DNA of 64,000 bases, from positions 3,212,001 through 3,276,000 of the forward strand of contig NZ_AP018907.1 in the NCBI RefSeq assembly GCF_003966715.1, read 5' to 3'. A program made the position numbers and the translations under genes. Of the stretch, positions 8,319 to 59,789 are shown in pieces; positions within the stretch are counted from its first letter, which is position 1; each line of letters starts with the position of its first letter. Below the pieces are notes generated by a model. The model made no database searches, had not been told where the DNA came from, and was given only the letters and a program-made list of their open reading frames with translations. This stretch comes from Blastochloris tepida. Lineage in GTDB: Bacteria > Pseudomonadota > Alphaproteobacteria > Rhizobiales > Xanthobacteraceae.

Positions 8319-10997
8319 TCAGGCTGCAGCACCCGCCTGCTTCGCCGCGGCCGGGCGCGAGAAGTCGAGGTCGGCGGCCGGCGCCGGGCGTCCGAACAGA
8401 TAACCCTGGCAGAAATCGACGCCGGCCCCGCGCAGCAGTTCGAGCTGCGCATGGCTCTCGACGCCTTCGGCGATGGTCGCCACGCCCAGGCAGCGGGTCA
8501 AAGTGATGACCGAGGCGATCACCGCCGCGCAATCGGCGCGCTTGGTCATGTTCATGGTGAAGGAGCGGTCGATCTTCACCTTGTCGAACGGGAAGGTGGT
8601 CAGATAGCTCAGCGACGAGTAGCCGGTGCCGAAATCGTCCAGCGCGATCGACACGCCGAGCTCCTTCATCCGCCGGACGGTGGCGATATTGTCCTCCGCG
8701 CCGGTGAGAAACACGTTCTCGGTGATCTCGATCTCCAGCCGGCGGGCCGGAAGTCCGGAATCCGCCAGGGCCTGCCGGATCATCGCCACCGGATCGGCGC
8801 GGCGGAACTGGACCGGCGACAGATTGACCGCCACCACCGTATCGTCCGGCCACCCGCGCGCCTCGACGCAGGCGCGGCGCAGCACCCATTGGCCGATCTG
8901 CTCGATCAGGCCCGACTCCTCGGCAAACGGAATGAATTCGAGCGGCGGCACCAGCCCGCGGCGCGGGTGGCGCCAGCGCACCAGCGCCTCGGCGCCGCAG
9001 ACACGGCGCGTGCGGGCGTCGATGATCGCCTGATAGTGCAGCTCGAACTCGCCATTGGCGATGGCGTGGCGCAGCTCGCTGTCCAGCCGCTGGCGGGCGT
9101 CGGCCACCTCCATCAGCCCGTCATCATAGACGCTGTAGCCGTTGCGGCCTTCGCCCTTCACCCGGTACATCGCCAGATCGGCATTGCGGATCAGCTTGTC
9201 GGCCTCGACGCCGTGCTCGGGCGCCAAGGCGATGCCGATGCTGACGCTGACCGTCACCTCCTGGCCGCCGAGATCGTAGGGCGCCGACAGGCAGGCGATC
9301 AGCCGTCCGCTGAACGCGGTCGCCGCGTCGAGCTGATTGTCGGCGCCGACCTGGATGATGGCGAATTCGTCGCCGCCGAAGCGGGCCAGGATGTCGGTCT
9401 CGCGCAGCGTCGCCTTCAGCCGCTCGGCGGTTTGCTTCAGCAGCATGTCGCCGGCCAGATGGCCGAGCGTGTCGTTGACCTGCTTGAAGCGGTCGAGATC
9501 GAGCAGCAGCACCGTGAAGGTTTCGCCGAACCGGCGCTGGCGCGCGGCCGCCTCCTCGATCTTCTCGGAGAAAGCAGCGCGGTTGAACAGGCCGGTCAGG
9601 AGATCGTGCCGCGCCATGTAGGCGATCTGGGTTTCGCTGCGGTGGCGGTCGGTGATGTCCTCGTGGGTGGTCATCCAGCCGCCATCGGCCATGCGCTGGC
9701 AGCGGATGTGGATGGCGCGCCCGTCCGGCAGAAGCTGCACCTCGGCGGGATTGCCCGCGAGATCGGCGAAATAGTTGCGCGGCGGCGCGCCGGCGTGCGT
9801 GCCGTTGCGGATGCGGCAGTCGAATATCGCGGCGAGCGAAGTACCGGGCGCGGCCTCGTCCGGCGACAGCCCGTAGATTTCGGCGAAGCGGGCGTTCGAC
9901 ACGACGATGCGCTCGTCGGCGTCGAACATGCACAGGCCCTGCGAGATGTTGTTGAGCGCCGAATCGAAGCGGATGTTCGACACGGCGAGCGCCCGGCTCT
10001 TGTCGCGCAGCTTGCGCTCGGAGCGGCGAAGCCGCTGGAACTGCCCCATCACCGCCCACAGCAGAACGGTCGCCGCCGACACCAGCAGGGCCGCGCCGAT
10101 GGCGATGGCGACGGCGCGGCGATACCAGCGGGCCAGCATCTCGCGCTCCGAGATGCCGACATTGAGCACCAGCGGATAATTCTGCAGCGGCCGCACCGCG
10201 AACCAGCGCGCCACCCCGTCGAAATAGCCCGGCGAGCGGAACTCGCCGCCGCCCTTGGCCACCAGCCCGTACCAGGGCGAGGAACTCGGCAGGCTGGCGC
10301 CGGTGGCGGCGTTCGCCAGATCGGGATAGCGCAGCATCACCGTGCCGTTGCGCCGCACCAGCGTGAGCCGCATGTCGCCGAGCGACTTGATCGGCGCATA
10401 GATGGTCTCGAAATAGTCGACGGTGACGGTGATCAGCGCGACGCCGGCGAACTCGCCTGCGGCGTCGGTGATGCGGCGTGCAAACGCAATGTTGCTCACG
10501 CCGGTCATGCGGTTGGTCAAAGGCTGCGAGATGAAGAGGCCGCGCGCGGCATCGCTCTTCAGCTCGCGGAAATAGTCGCGGTCGGAAACGTCGATGGCCC
10601 ACTTGATGTCGGGAAACGTGGTGACGAGGTTCCTGCCGTCGGCGCCATAGACCGAGGCGCCATAGGCCTGCGGCAGTCTCTCGACGCGCTCGCGCAGCAG
10701 GTTCTGGAAGCGGTCGCCGGTGACGAGATCGGCGAGGTCGCGCTGGTCCTTCACACCGGCCAGCGCGATGAACTCCATCAGATCGAGCAGCGTGATGTCG
10801 ATCGCCTCGATCGAGCGTTCGAGCTGGCCGGACAGCACGATGGCGAGATTGCGCACATGGGCGGTGCTGTCCTCGATGTCGTCGGCCCGGAACTGCCAGG
10901 TCGCGAGCCCGACGCCGACGAAGCAGGCGACCAGGAACGCCGCGGCGACGCTCAGGATGCTGCGCACCGAGAAGCGGTTCAGAACCGACAGGGTCAC
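8319..10997 (-). CDS. membrane PDC-PAS-GGDEF-EAL cyclic-di-GMP enzyme
   Basis: The 892-residue inner-membrane signalling protein has a transmembrane helix at residues about 13-32, a periplasmic PDC/dCACHE-like sensor to about 285, a second helix near 287-312, a PAS domain (about 340-450), GGDEF (about 460-625) and EAL (about 635-880). The GGDEF motif RFGGDEFAI is intact, and RETD five residues before it matches the inhibitory I-site. The EAL side has EALVRWRHP, DDFGTGYSSLSYL, KIDRSF and AEGVES, so both synthesis and hydrolysis of c-di-GMP look chemically possible. The start codon is GTG with a modest AGGG upstream. It stands alone and converges on the M20 gene. The sensed ligand is unknown. 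Confidence 0.93.
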   Translation of the reverse strand: MTLSVLNRFSVRSILSVAAAFLVACFVGVGLATWQFRADDIEDSTAHVRNLAIVLSGQLERSIEAIDITLLDLMEFIALAGVKDQRDLADLVTGDRFQNLLRERVERLPQAYGASVYGADGRNLVTTFPDIKWAIDVSDRDYFRELKSDAARGLFISQPLTNRMTGVSNIAFARRITDAAGEFAGVALITVTVDYFETIYAPIKSLGDMRLTLVRRNGTVMLRYPDLANAATGASLPSSSPWYGLVAKGGGEFRSPGYFDGVARWFAVRPLQNYPLVLNVGISEREMLARWYRRAVAIAIGAALLVSAATVLLWAVMGQFQRLRRSERKLRDKSRALAVSNIRFDSALNNISQGLCMFDADERIVVSNARFAEIYGLSPDEAAPGTSLAAIFDCRIRNGTHAGAPPRNYFADLAGNPAEVQLLPDGRAIHIRCQRMADGGWMTTHEDITDRHRSETQIAYMARHDLLTGLFNRAAFSEKIEEAAARQRRFGETFTVLLLDLDRFKQVNDTLGHLAGDMLLKQTAERLKATLRETDILARFGGDEFAIIQVGADNQLDAATAFSGRLIACLSAPYDLGGQEVTVSVSIGIALAPEHGVEADKLIRNADLAMYRVKGEGRNGYSVYDDGLMEVADARQRLDSELRHAIANGEFELHYQAIIDARTRRVCGAEALVRWRHPRRGLVPPLEFIPFAEESGLIEQIGQWVLRRACVEARGWPDDTVVAVNLSPVQFRRADPVAMIRQALADSGLPARRLEIEITENVFLTGAEDNIATVRRMKELGVSIALDDFGTGYSSLSYLTTFPFDKVKIDRSFTMNMTKRADCAAVIASVITLTRCLGVATIAEGVESHAQLELLRGAGVDFCQGYLFGRPAPAADLDFSRPAAAKQAGAAA

Positions 10998-11337
10998 GTC
11001 GCCCTCGCCCGGTTGCCGGCGGGCAACGTCCTGCCGGCCATCGGCACCCGTGCCGGCTCAGGCCGCCAATCCGACATTGCGCGCATCCGAAATGCCTCCC
11101 CGCCGGCCGGTTGAATCGGCTCAGCCGTTGCGTGTACGCATCAGCAGCCTGCACCGTAACGTTTTAATCGGCGCTAACGGTCGCCCGGCCGGGGGAGGAC
11201 ATTGCCGAGAGGGTGAATTTTCTGCAACCGCCGATGGGGGGCGGTTGCTGGTGTCCAAGCTGTACCCGTGGGATGGCCACGGATTGCGTTTCGGACGGCG
11301 TACGGTGGCCCCGCGGCACGTTGCGCCGGCAACCGTG
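10998..11337. other. intergenic region with a single hairpin
   Basis: This stretch lies between two minus-strand genes. It holds the upstream region of the GGDEF-EAL gene. It also holds a hairpin GCAACCGCC (11224-11232) / GGCGGTTGC (11240-11248), which may end the aldehyde dehydrogenase transcript although no T-run follows. I see no further gene or repeat in it. Confidence 0.5.
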
Positions 11338-53321: not shown

Positions 53322-53431
53322 CCGCACGGCTGCGGGTCGATACGGGGGTGCCCGCGACGGGAACGCAGGTGACTGTGCCGGCTTGAGGTGGAATGGCGCA
53401 CCGCGCGGCTTGGTGCCGACGCGGATGACGG

Positions 53432-53461
53432 GGGCTGGCGGGCGGTGGGCTGGCGGGCGGA
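53432..53461 (+). repeat. two tandem 15-bp repeats before the MNT-like gene
   Basis: GGGCTGGCGGGCGGT (53432-53446) is followed directly by GGGCTGGCGGGCGGA (53447-53461). The second unit carries the ribosome-binding site of the gene starting at 53469. It could be an operator for autoregulation of the toxin-antitoxin pair. Confidence 0.65.
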
Positions 53462-53468
53462 GGGTGGC

Positions 53469-53762
53469 ATGAACGTTCCGATCCTCGACCGCTCGACGCT
53501 GCTCAAGCATATCCGCGCCGTCGAGCAGGACCATCCGCTGAAGATCGTCGCGCTTCTGCCGCGGGGTGCCGCCCCGCATGTCGAGGGCGACGATGCCGTC
53601 GATTTCCTGGCGGAGAAGCGGGAAGGTCTGTCGCTGCTCGGCCTGACCAGCGCCGAGCTCGACCTTGCCGCCCGTCTCGGGCGCCCGGTCGGCATCGTGC
53701 TGGCGAGCGAACTCAGCGGCACCGAGAAGGCGCGGGTCGAAAGGTCCGCGAGACCCTTATGA
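53469..53762 (+). CDS. mntA: MNT-type nucleotidyltransferase antitoxin with degenerate active site
   Basis: The 97-residue protein is placed as the antitoxin partner of the HepT gene it overlaps (ATGA at 53759-53762). It has the MNT-like layout: an N-terminal helix, KIVALLPRGAAPHVEGDDAV with DFLAEK, then SLLGLTSAELDLAARLGRPV. In active MNT proteins the first stretch reads FGSRARG...DSDID. Here the GS pair is replaced by PR, the second Gly by Pro and the first Asp of the DxD pair by Ala. Catalysis (AMP transfer to the toxin) therefore looks lost. GGAGGG precedes the ATG at 53469. The assignment rests on context plus the residual pattern. Confidence 0.75.
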   Translation: MNVPILDRSTLLKHIRAVEQDHPLKIVALLPRGAAPHVEGDDAVDFLAEKREGLSLLGLTSAELDLAARLGRPVGIVLASELSGTEKARVERSARPL

Positions 53763-54103
53763 GCGGCCGCACGACCGTCGACTTTCTGACCGACGCGCGA
53801 GACCACTGCCTCATGCTGGCCGACCGGGCGCGCGACGTGGCACCGGCCGCCTTTGCCGTCGACGAGGTGCGCCTGCAGTCGGCGATCTATTGCGTGCTGG
53901 TGATCGGCGAAGCGATGAACCGTGTCCCGAAGGAAGTCCGCACGCTGGTGCCCGAGGTCGCCTGGGAGCCGGCGATCGCCATGCGCAACCGCCTTGTCCA
54001 CGCCTATTGGCTGGCCGATCCGGAGATCGTGTTCCGCGTCGCCGCCGACGATGCGCCGAAACTGGCCGGACAACTCGACCGTCTGATCCTTCGCCTGAGC
54101 TGA
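53759..54103 (+). CDS. hepT: HepT-like (DUF86) ribonuclease toxin
   Basis: HepT toxins are HEPN-domain ribonucleases; known ones are neutralised by AMPylation of a Tyr by the MNT partner. The 114-residue protein is alpha-helical, with FLTDARDHCLMLADRARDV, LQSAIYCVLVIGEAMNRVPK and the catalytic RX4HXY motif in MRNRLVHAYWLADPEIVF, which is intact (Arg, His and Tyr present). It overlaps the upstream gene by 4 bases and ends 6 bases before trpF, so it is embedded in the lapA-trp transcription unit. The location between lapA and trpF is not the usual order, so insertion is inferred. Confidence 0.9.
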   Translation: MSGRTTVDFLTDARDHCLMLADRARDVAPAAFAVDEVRLQSAIYCVLVIGEAMNRVPKEVRTLVPEVAWEPAIAMRNRLVHAYWLADPEIVFRVAADDAPKLAGQLDRLILRLS

Positions 54104-57808: not shown

Positions 57809-57849
57809 GACGGGGCGACCGGCAGTTGCAGCTTGACGGGAAGCATCCA

Positions 57850-57876
57850 CCGAGAGCGGGCGATTGCGGCTCTCGG
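57850..57876. promoter_or_regulatory. inverted repeat upstream of the ATPase-PIN cassette
   Basis: CCGAGAGC (57850-57857) and GCTCTCGG (57869-57876) are exact inverted repeats with an 11-base spacer. They lie 24 bases before the ATPase start codon. They may end the accD transcript or act as an operator for the cassette. TTGACG (from 57833) upstream is a possible -35 box. Confidence 0.5.
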
Positions 57877-57900
57877 AAGGGGTGTGGCATGATTTGATCT

Positions 57901-59256
57901 ATGTTGGCTCGCCTGCGATTTACCAACTTCAAGACTTGGGCCGAGGCGGATTTGCCGCTTGGCAACGTCACGGGGCTGTTCGGCACCAATTCCTCGGGCA
58001 AGACCAGCATTCTGCAGTTCCTGCTGATGCTGAAGCAGACCAAGCAGGCCACCGACCGCGCAATTTCGCTGGAGCTGAACGGCCCGCTCGTTCAGCTCGG
58101 AACCATCAAGGACGCCATTCACCAGCACGACGAAGACAAGGCGGTCGAATTCTCGATTGGATTCGAATTGAAATCCGAACTGGCGCTTCAGGATGTGCGC
58201 GGAAGTCGAAGCACCGACCTCGTCAAATCCAAGTCACTTGAAATCCGAAGCGAGGTCATCGTTCAACAGATGGCCCCGCTGGCCAAGCGTTTGACCTATT
58301 GCCTTGGGACTGCAGAATTCTCGCTGCTGCCGCGACCAGGAAGCGACGGTAAGTTTGAGCTTGCAGCCGCAGGTGTTCCCGATTTCGAGTTTGTCCGAAC
58401 CCTTGGTCGCCCGTGGGCACTGCCCGGGCCCGTCAAGACCTATGCGTTCCCGGACCAGGCCCGAACCTACTTTCAAAACGCCAGTTTTCTGTCGGAACTT
58501 GAAGCGGCCTACGAGGCTGAGATGGACCGGATTTTCTATCTCGGTCCTTTAAGAAATTACCCCCAGCGTGATTATCTTTGGGCACGCTCACGTCCCAGCG
58601 ATGTCGGCCTACGTGGGGAGAAGGCGATTGATGCCATTCTCGCCGCAACGGAAGCCAACGAGACCCGAAACCTCAAGCCGAAAGCTCATCTGAAATCATT
58701 CCAAGAGATGATTGCTTATTGGCTTCGCGAGATGGGCCTCATCCACGCCTTCAAGGTCGAGGAAATCGCTCCGGGATCGAACCGCTGGCAGGCTCGGGTG
58801 ACGACAAGACCCGGAGGCACCCAGGTTCTGCTCACCGACGTCGGCTTCGGTGTATCGCAGGTGCTGCCGGTCATCACCCTGCTCTACTACGTGCCCGAGG
58901 GTTCGACTGTCATTCTGGAGCAGCCGGAAATCCATCTGCATCCGCTGGCCCAGGCTGAACTGGCCGACGTCATCCTCAATGTTGCCACTCACCGCCGAGT
59001 GCAGGTCATTGTCGAAAGCCATTCGGAGCACCTGCTGCTGCGACTGCAGCGGCGGATTGCGGAGGAAAAGGCGTCGGCCAAAGACGTGAAACTCTATTTC
59101 TGCCGCGCTGAGAAGGAGCGCTCCATTGCCGAGCCGCTCAACCTCGACATGCTCGGCAACATCCTGAACTGGCCAGACAAGTTCATGGGCGACGCGTTCA
59201 CCGAGACTGCCCAGGCCGAGCTTGCACGGCTGAAACGGATGAAAGCCGCGGAATGA
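57901..59256 (+). CDS. SMC/ABC-type AAA ATPase (DUF3696-like), candidate defence ATPase
   Basis: The 451-residue protein is an AAA_15/21-type ATPase of the SMC/OLD branch. It starts ARLRFTNFKTW and has Walker A GTNSSGKTS (28-36), the ABC-like signature TDVGFGVSQVLPV (312-324), Walker B STVILEQPEIHLHP (335-348) with LAQAEL after it, and the H-switch VIVESHSEHLLLRLQ (369-383). The C-terminal region with KLYFCRAEKE resembles DUF3696. No long coiled coil, TOPRIM or HNH domain is fused. Its stop overlaps the PIN gene start (ATGA). Base composition and codon use are clearly less GC-rich than in accD or radA, which suggests transfer. ATPase-nuclease pairs of this kind (Septu, Gabija, PARIS) are antiviral; the same role is inferred here. 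Confidence 0.88.
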   Translation: MLARLRFTNFKTWAEADLPLGNVTGLFGTNSSGKTSILQFLLMLKQTKQATDRAISLELNGPLVQLGTIKDAIHQHDEDKAVEFSIGFELKSELALQDVRGSRSTDLVKSKSLEIRSEVIVQQMAPLAKRLTYCLGTAEFSLLPRPGSDGKFELAAAGVPDFEFVRTLGRPWALPGPVKTYAFPDQARTYFQNASFLSELEAAYEAEMDRIFYLGPLRNYPQRDYLWARSRPSDVGLRGEKAIDAILAATEANETRNLKPKAHLKSFQEMIAYWLREMGLIHAFKVEEIAPGSNRWQARVTTRPGGTQVLLTDVGFGVSQVLPVITLLYYVPEGSTVILEQPEIHLHPLAQAELADVILNVATHRRVQVIVESHSEHLLLRLQRRIAEEKASAKDVKLYFCRAEKERSIAEPLNLDMLGNILNWPDKFMGDAFTETAQAELARLKRMKAAE

Positions 59257-59789
59257 CCCGTTGCGTCGTCGACACCAATGTTCCGATCGTCGCCAATGGA
59301 CGAGCGGATGAAGGTAGCTCCCTGCCATCGATCGACTGCCGACAGGCGGCCGTTGAATTCCTCATCAAGCTTCGTGCAACCGGGCGAGTTGTTCTCGACC
59401 TTGCCGGGGAAATCCAATCTGAATATCGCCACAAGCTCTTGCCCAGTGGCCAGCCCGGCGTTGGGGATCGGTTTTACCAGATCGTTCTCAGCAGCGACCC
59501 ACGCTTGGTGGAATTCATTCCTTTGCCAAAGACGCCCAATGGCAATTATGCTGATTTTCCGGCGGACCCAAGACTTGAAAGATTCGATCCGTCCGACCGC
59601 AAGTTCGCGGCCTTGAGTCGCCGGGAGCAGATTCCCGTCATCAACGCCACCGATTCCGACTGGCTGGAGCACCGGGAAGCTTTGACTGCCAATGGCATCG
59701 AGATCCGCTTTCTGTGCGGATGCGAGCCATCGACATGGTTCGAGCGTCCGGCCAATAGACGCCGGAAGTCATCGAACCGGCGTCGCTGA
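59253..59789 (+). CDS. PIN-domain nuclease-like protein, partner of the ATPase
   Basis: The 178-residue protein begins RCVVDTNVPIVAN, with the first PIN acidic residue at Asp7. The second acidic position fits Glu53 in DLAGEIQSEYRHKL, the third Asp115 in FDPSDRKFAALS, and the last ones Asp134/Asp136 in VINATDSDWLEH. So the metal-binding set looks complete. The C-terminus has two Cys in FLCGCEPSTW and an Arg-rich end (RPANRRRKSSNRRR) that could bind nucleic acid. It overlaps the ATPase by 4 bases and its stop overlaps the radA start by one base. PIN proteins often cut RNA. A VapC toxin is an alternative reading, but no small antitoxin is adjacent. Confidence 0.78.
   Translation: MTRCVVDTNVPIVANGRADEGSSLPSIDCRQAAVEFLIKLRATGRVVLDLAGEIQSEYRHKLLPSGQPGVGDRFYQIVLSSDPRLVEFIPLPKTPNGNYADFPADPRLERFDPSDRKFAALSRREQIPVINATDSDWLEHREALTANGIEIRFLCGCEPSTWFERPANRRRKSSNRRR

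Follow-up and report, generated by a model that had tools for sequence, protein, structure and literature searches.

What is encoded by the two overlapping genes, one for an SMC/ABC-type ATPase and the other for a PIN-fold protein, that lie between accD and radA on the + strand of the Blastochloris tepida genome? The pair was studied in a stretch of 64,000 nucleotides (contig NZ_AP018907.1, positions 3,212,001 to 3,276,000), here referred to as the window, and coordinates are window positions unless another contig is named. An earlier note on this DNA had described the pair as a candidate undescribed defence system. The two-gene cassette is real, and its motifs, its ATGA overlap and its guanine-plus-cytosine (GC) content, lower than that of accD and radA, were all confirmed; the term undescribed had to be dropped, as both proteins match HEC-03 in PADLOC-DB 2.0.0 and a match to a named system is what the note had set against novelty. 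With moderate confidence, we read the pair as a horizontally acquired HEC-03 member in which an ATPase-controlled PIN protein would cut RNA and stop growth, and in which the cuts could be resealed by a ligase in many relatives.

Identity and architecture of the pair

PADLOC-DB 2.0.0 dates from 2023, and HEC stands for Hma-embedded candidate. The ATPase matches the HEC-03B model (PDLC04148) with an E-value of 6.5e-180 and 597 bits (positions 1-452 of 458), and the PIN protein matches HEC-03A (PDLC04147) with an E-value of 9.7e-27 and 92 bits (positions 3-152 of 159). HEC-03A is the sole PADLOC match of the PIN protein at E ≤ 1, and the AriA models rank second for the ATPase, with 96 bits versus 597 for HEC-03B. 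Since both models are matched, and over nearly their full length, the pair is by sequence comparison a member of this catalogued candidate system and shows no difference from it; many of its relatives add an RNA ligase that matches no PADLOC model. The phrase "Hma-embedded candidates" occurs in PMC12988326, citing a 2024 preprint, where several of them including HEC-06 are said to have shown antiviral activity, and HEC-03 is named once in PMC13356809 as a detected subtype.

The ATPase gene (57901..59256, +) encodes 451 amino acids and possesses a Walker A motif (GTNSSGKTS, residues 28-36, 57982..58008), an ABC-signature-like motif (GFGVSQ, residues 315-320, 58843..58860), a Walker B motif (VILEQPE, residues 337-343, 58909..58929) and an H-switch-like motif (VESHSEH, residues 371-377, 59011..59031), all on the + strand and conserved in the family. 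A DUF3696 region (residues 393-436, 59077..59208, +), which the earlier note had listed as worth searching for, is detected by Pfam PF12476 above its cut-off (E 1.4e-6; 28.9 bits, cut-off 22). The predicted model has an SMC/Rad50-like head fold that is common to the Septu and Gabija ATPases. The stop codon of this gene overlaps the start of the PIN gene (59253..59789, +; 178 amino acids) in the sequence ATGA at 59253..59256 (+), and the start of radA in turn overlaps the PIN-gene stop codon (TGATG).

The PIN protein gave one chance-level row when compared by sequence with the PDB; its predicted model matches PIN structures, the closest folds being VapC toxins, and the assignment to the PIN fold therefore stands. 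Among 26 aligned sequences D7 (59271), E57 (59421), D112 (59586) and D115 (59595), all on the + strand, are invariant, and D134 (59652, +) is conserved in at least 90%. Thus D7, D115 and D134 of the acidic set proposed earlier are retained, and E53 is rejected as a catalytic residue. HEC-03A, to which the PADLOC output gave no description, hereby gains a fold and an active site.

The two genes are consistently found together, as the earlier note had expected of a true system. In a sample of 398 genomes of the phylum, HEC-03B (E ≤ 1e-60) was matched in 15 genomes and HEC-03A (E ≤ 1e-8) in 11, all of them within those 15. The four genomes missed by HEC-03A at this limit carry a more divergent PIN protein, and with family-built profiles a PIN gene was recognized directly 3′ of the ATPase gene in 15/15, the window copy being one of them. 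With start codons picked by script, the two genes overlap by 4 or 8 bases (gaps of -4 or -8) in 14 genomes, and in the fifteenth they are separated by 8 bases (+8). Among nine loci found with the window PIN protein in the genome_contigs collection, the ATPase is seen in eight, and the ninth is truncated by a contig end that falls within the PIN gene. The PIN gene is also present in 12 plasmid records; the annotation of 11 of these lists an overlapping DUF3696 protein, and that of the twelfth an adjacent AAA ATPase.

Acquisition and surroundings

The window pair is a genuine, horizontally acquired segment. Both genes have a GC content of 58.1%, with third-position values (GC3) of 0.70 for the ATPase and 0.65 for the PIN gene, compared with 68-74% and 0.89-0.94 for trpF, trpB, trpA, accD, radA, cvpA and purF, and together they form the lowest-GC 1.9-kb stretch in the 64 kb when scanned in 100-base steps. 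No ATPase relative was found at E ≤ 1e-20 in any of 40 related genomes, a set that contains both congeners. DNA similarity to one congener (G002) ends at 57815, just past accD, and restarts where radA begins (59789), so that the low-GC segment 57816..59788 lacks a counterpart at the same place. The site is also the breakpoint of a rearrangement of ~141 kb relative to G002, the other end lying at about 3413063-3413086 of G000:C1, where G000 is the window genome: the orientation of radA with respect to accD is reversed in G002, whose DNA upstream of radA sits ~141 kb off in the window genome. In the second congener, G001, accD and radA are far apart.

A cassette that lies among housekeeping genes, overlaps the start of radA and occupies a rearrangement breakpoint might have arrived there by chance and have no present function. 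We consider this very improbable, as both frames are open, of full length and retain the family-conserved residues, and a 94% identical PIN protein is known elsewhere (P0001). Elsewhere in the window, a HepT-like ribonuclease gene (53759-54103, +; PF01934, 59.8 bits; motif RNRLVHAYW) is located ~4 kb upstream of the cassette, and just before it an open reading frame (53388-53762) looks like a shortened MntA-type nucleotidyltransferase and has no Pfam match. There are no Rfam matches between 53000 and 64000 and no tRNA genes in the window.

Relatives of the pair are encountered on mobile elements. A related ATPase is encoded on 35 viral contigs, of which four have the PIN gene and three of these four the ligase; the other 31 (L104-L134) carry more distant ATPase relatives and lack this PIN gene. 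An integrase gene is immediately upstream of the cassette in contigs L100 and L103, L100 also having a DNA primase, while portal genes occur in L102, together with a terminase, and in L101, together with a major head protein. L101 and the phylum genome G235 share the same PIN protein and so are not independent. Read from these matches, the carriers include P4-like satellites and a P2-like prophage, and further relatives reside on conjugative or mobilizable plasmids. PMC9122126 describes the region next to the integrase in P4-like satellites as a hotspot for anti-phage systems; the terms RNA ligase, PIN domain and DUF3696 are absent from its main text.

Defence genes are neighbours of some relatives. 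In locus L071 the ATPase gene is immediately preceded by the BREX gene PglX; in L074, Ppl is upstream, and BrxHI and PglZ come after the ligase. PtuA is ~2 kb from L043, a restriction-enzyme match is near L075, and an Acinetobacter copy is preceded by helicase and methylase genes. From 142 neighbours picked, 74 from 19 loci were screened and 20 of these were run singly (E ≤ 1e-30 or E ≤ 1e-20), six of which, from four loci, matched defence models. The screen gave a few further matches, not assigned to loci; many loci thus show no known defence neighbour. The expectation that the genes sit in defence islands thus holds in part of the relatives, with defence or mobile surroundings, and fails for the window copy.

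Carriage by plasmids, satellites and prophages, together with the VapC-like fold of the PIN protein and the solitary position of the window cassette, would also be in keeping with a toxin-antitoxin or addiction module, wherein the ATPase restrains a VapC-like toxin and serves maintenance of the mobile element and not immunity. Antitoxins, however, are usually small and encoded upstream, ATPases of this class serve in immunity, and in L071 and L074 the operon has BREX genes as neighbours; we judge such a module improbable and prefer an RNA-cleaving defence.

RNA ligase as a third gene

In 10 of the 15 ATPase-bearing phylum genomes the PIN gene is followed, with a gap of -11 to -4 bases, by a gene of 225-245 codons that is recognised by a profile of the plasmid ligases. 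This profile gave 16 matches at E ≤ 1e-15 over the 398 genomes. Ranked by strength, the first ten (E ≤ 2.4e-74) coincide exactly with the ten that adjoin a PIN gene; the remaining six (E ≥ 3e-48) have no PIN or ATPase gene within a flank of ~1.5 kb. A three-gene form is present, for instance, in Azotobacter chroococcum (L064). The RNA_ligase family PF09414 was above its cut-off in 11/11 ligases tested (four from plasmids, two of the ten from phylum genomes, one each from L044 and L045, and three from viral contigs), and the catalytic-motif residues are invariant among 16 aligned ligases. In the six plasmid records opened, of the 12, an "RNA ligase family protein" is annotated after the PIN gene in five and an HNH gene in one (Acinetobacter). 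On the Acinetobacter plasmid L065 an HNH protein (10538-11296) occupies the ligase position, and the ATPase is annotated in two pieces. No PADLOC model was matched by seven ligases (four at E ≤ 0.001, three at E ≤ 0.01), and searches of open-licence papers did not find a three-gene ATPase-PIN-ligase operon described. No obvious end-healing enzyme follows the three genes in the operons read, no profile search for healing enzymes having been made.

Two gammaproteobacterial contigs from metagenome-assembled genomes, L044 (7938-9092) and L045 (7926-9148), have a distant ligase subfamily after their PIN frames, ~21-31% identical to the other operon ligases by local BLAST and nearer to a stand-alone ligase of L150. 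The PIN frames themselves look altered, with the D7 motif missing in L044 and the frame read in two pieces in L045. This ligase may be a separate recruitment, to which we attach little weight.

The window copy is a ligase-free subtype, with radA in place after the PIN gene. Two-gene and three-gene forms cluster in a 28-row tree of the ATPase, requiring 4 changes versus a mean of 8.9 after shuffling (0/500 shuffles as low), and a 28-row PIN tree agrees with it. The window copy falls within a set of four alphaproteobacterial rows, including Methylobacterium, that are all two-gene (99/100). The ligase has likely been lost recently in L077, since its sister, an Aeromonas plasmid, has one. PIN residue 136 (59658-59660) lies in NATDSDW in the window clade, whereas the main lineages that carry the ligase have QAxDxKW or a similar motif there. 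A lysine for aspartate here was rejected as a mark of ligase use, as it tracks lineage: L077 and L065 have K and no ligase, and L078-L080 have D and a ligase.

Proposed action and comparison with known systems

Metal-dependent PIN enzymes normally leave 5′-phosphate and 3′-OH ends, and these are exactly the ends that Rnl-type ligases join without end healing. The coupled ligase would therefore reverse PIN cuts with no healing step, and this chemical consistency favours RNA as the target; end chemistry and coupling together point to an RNA-cleaving defence, with its own repair enzyme in many lineages, as the most likely function. Here, the ATPase, whose SMC/Rad50 head is of the broad class of AriA, PtuA and GajA, would bind ATP, monitor for a sign of infection, and hold or recruit the PIN protein; as in the earlier note, we infer that it senses infection and licenses the nuclease. 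Once triggered, the PIN protein would cut RNA, the likeliest substrate being tRNA or another RNA of translation, and growth would stop before phage is made. The ligase, where present, may reverse stray or past cuts as an antidote or recovery enzyme, and the window subtype would depend on the ATPase for restraint. The defence function, the trigger, the RNA target and the ligase's role as an off-switch are likewise what we infer. PMC12409363 describes tRNA cleavage by AriB of PARIS and the cleavage of anticodon loops by PIN RNases such as VapC.

Several observations weigh against this reading. The PIN search gave no match in the phage collection, nor did the L100 cassette DNA in E. coli genomes, and the window copy is surrounded by housekeeping genes with no defence island. 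Singly attributed defence neighbours come from 4 of the 19 loci screened, a count with no matched control set. The ligase is missing from 5 of the 15 phylum genomes with the ATPase (the window genome, G235, which has a weaker ligase match elsewhere, G056, G389 and G117) and from 7 of the 9 genome_contigs loci, two of which, L041 and L046, extend past the PIN gene for no more than 413 and 761 bases. As the window genome has no PF09414 match at E ≤ 0.001 anywhere and no ligase-profile match at E ≤ 1e-15, RNA targeting by the window copy would follow from its kin. PIN domains, moreover, occur in DNA-acting nucleases too. DNA could be the target if the ATPase acts in a Septu- or Gabija-like manner and loads its PIN partner onto phage DNA for nicking, with the ligase, where present, sealing nicks in the host. 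This appears unlikely, if worth entertaining, as the coupled ligase is in the Pfam RNA_ligase family and the closest folds to the PIN model are VapC toxins, known as RNases.

Returning to RNA cleavage, a more tentative proposal, to which we give slightly less than an even chance, is that HEC-03 forms the ligase-free fringe of a broader, so far unrecognised ATPase-PIN-RNA ligase immunity that is reversible and self-repairing, allows survivors to recover and is possibly a fallback beside BREX. What appears to be new is the ligase as third gene in the wider family, the HEC-03 pair being already known, and it makes HEC-03 more interesting than a catalogue entry. RNA ligases are known in the field mainly as countermeasures to RNA-cutting immunity; here a ligase is repeatedly coupled translationally to the presumed cutter, partly at recognised defence sites, which would mean that some growth-arrest defences are designed for reversal. 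In RNA repair after ribotoxin cuts, as described in PMC4411300 and PMC3506569, ATP-dependent RNA ligation is shared, yet the ligase is there a countermeasure that needs end-healing partners, whereas in the present operons ligase and presumed cutter are encoded together.

Compared with known systems, the PIN protein shares its fold and acidic set with VapC toxins and differs in having no VapB, in its pairing with a 451-residue ATPase and in its length (178 versus about 130 amino acids). The predicted ATPase model shares its head fold with Septu (PtuA-PtuB) and Gabija (GajA-GajB). Membership in Septu was rejected because the partner matches no HNH family and has a predicted PIN fold, and membership in Gabija because the ATPase has no TOPRIM family match and its neighbours are accD and the PIN gene, with no GajB helicase. 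PARIS, found beside int in P4-like satellites (PMC9122126), likewise combines an SMC-like ATPase with a small nuclease; membership was rejected because the window nuclease is PIN and not TOPRIM/DUF4435 (AriB), matching only HEC-03A in PADLOC and PIN structures by its model. The plan resembles that of PARIS and Septu, in which an SMC-like ATPase controls a small nuclease.
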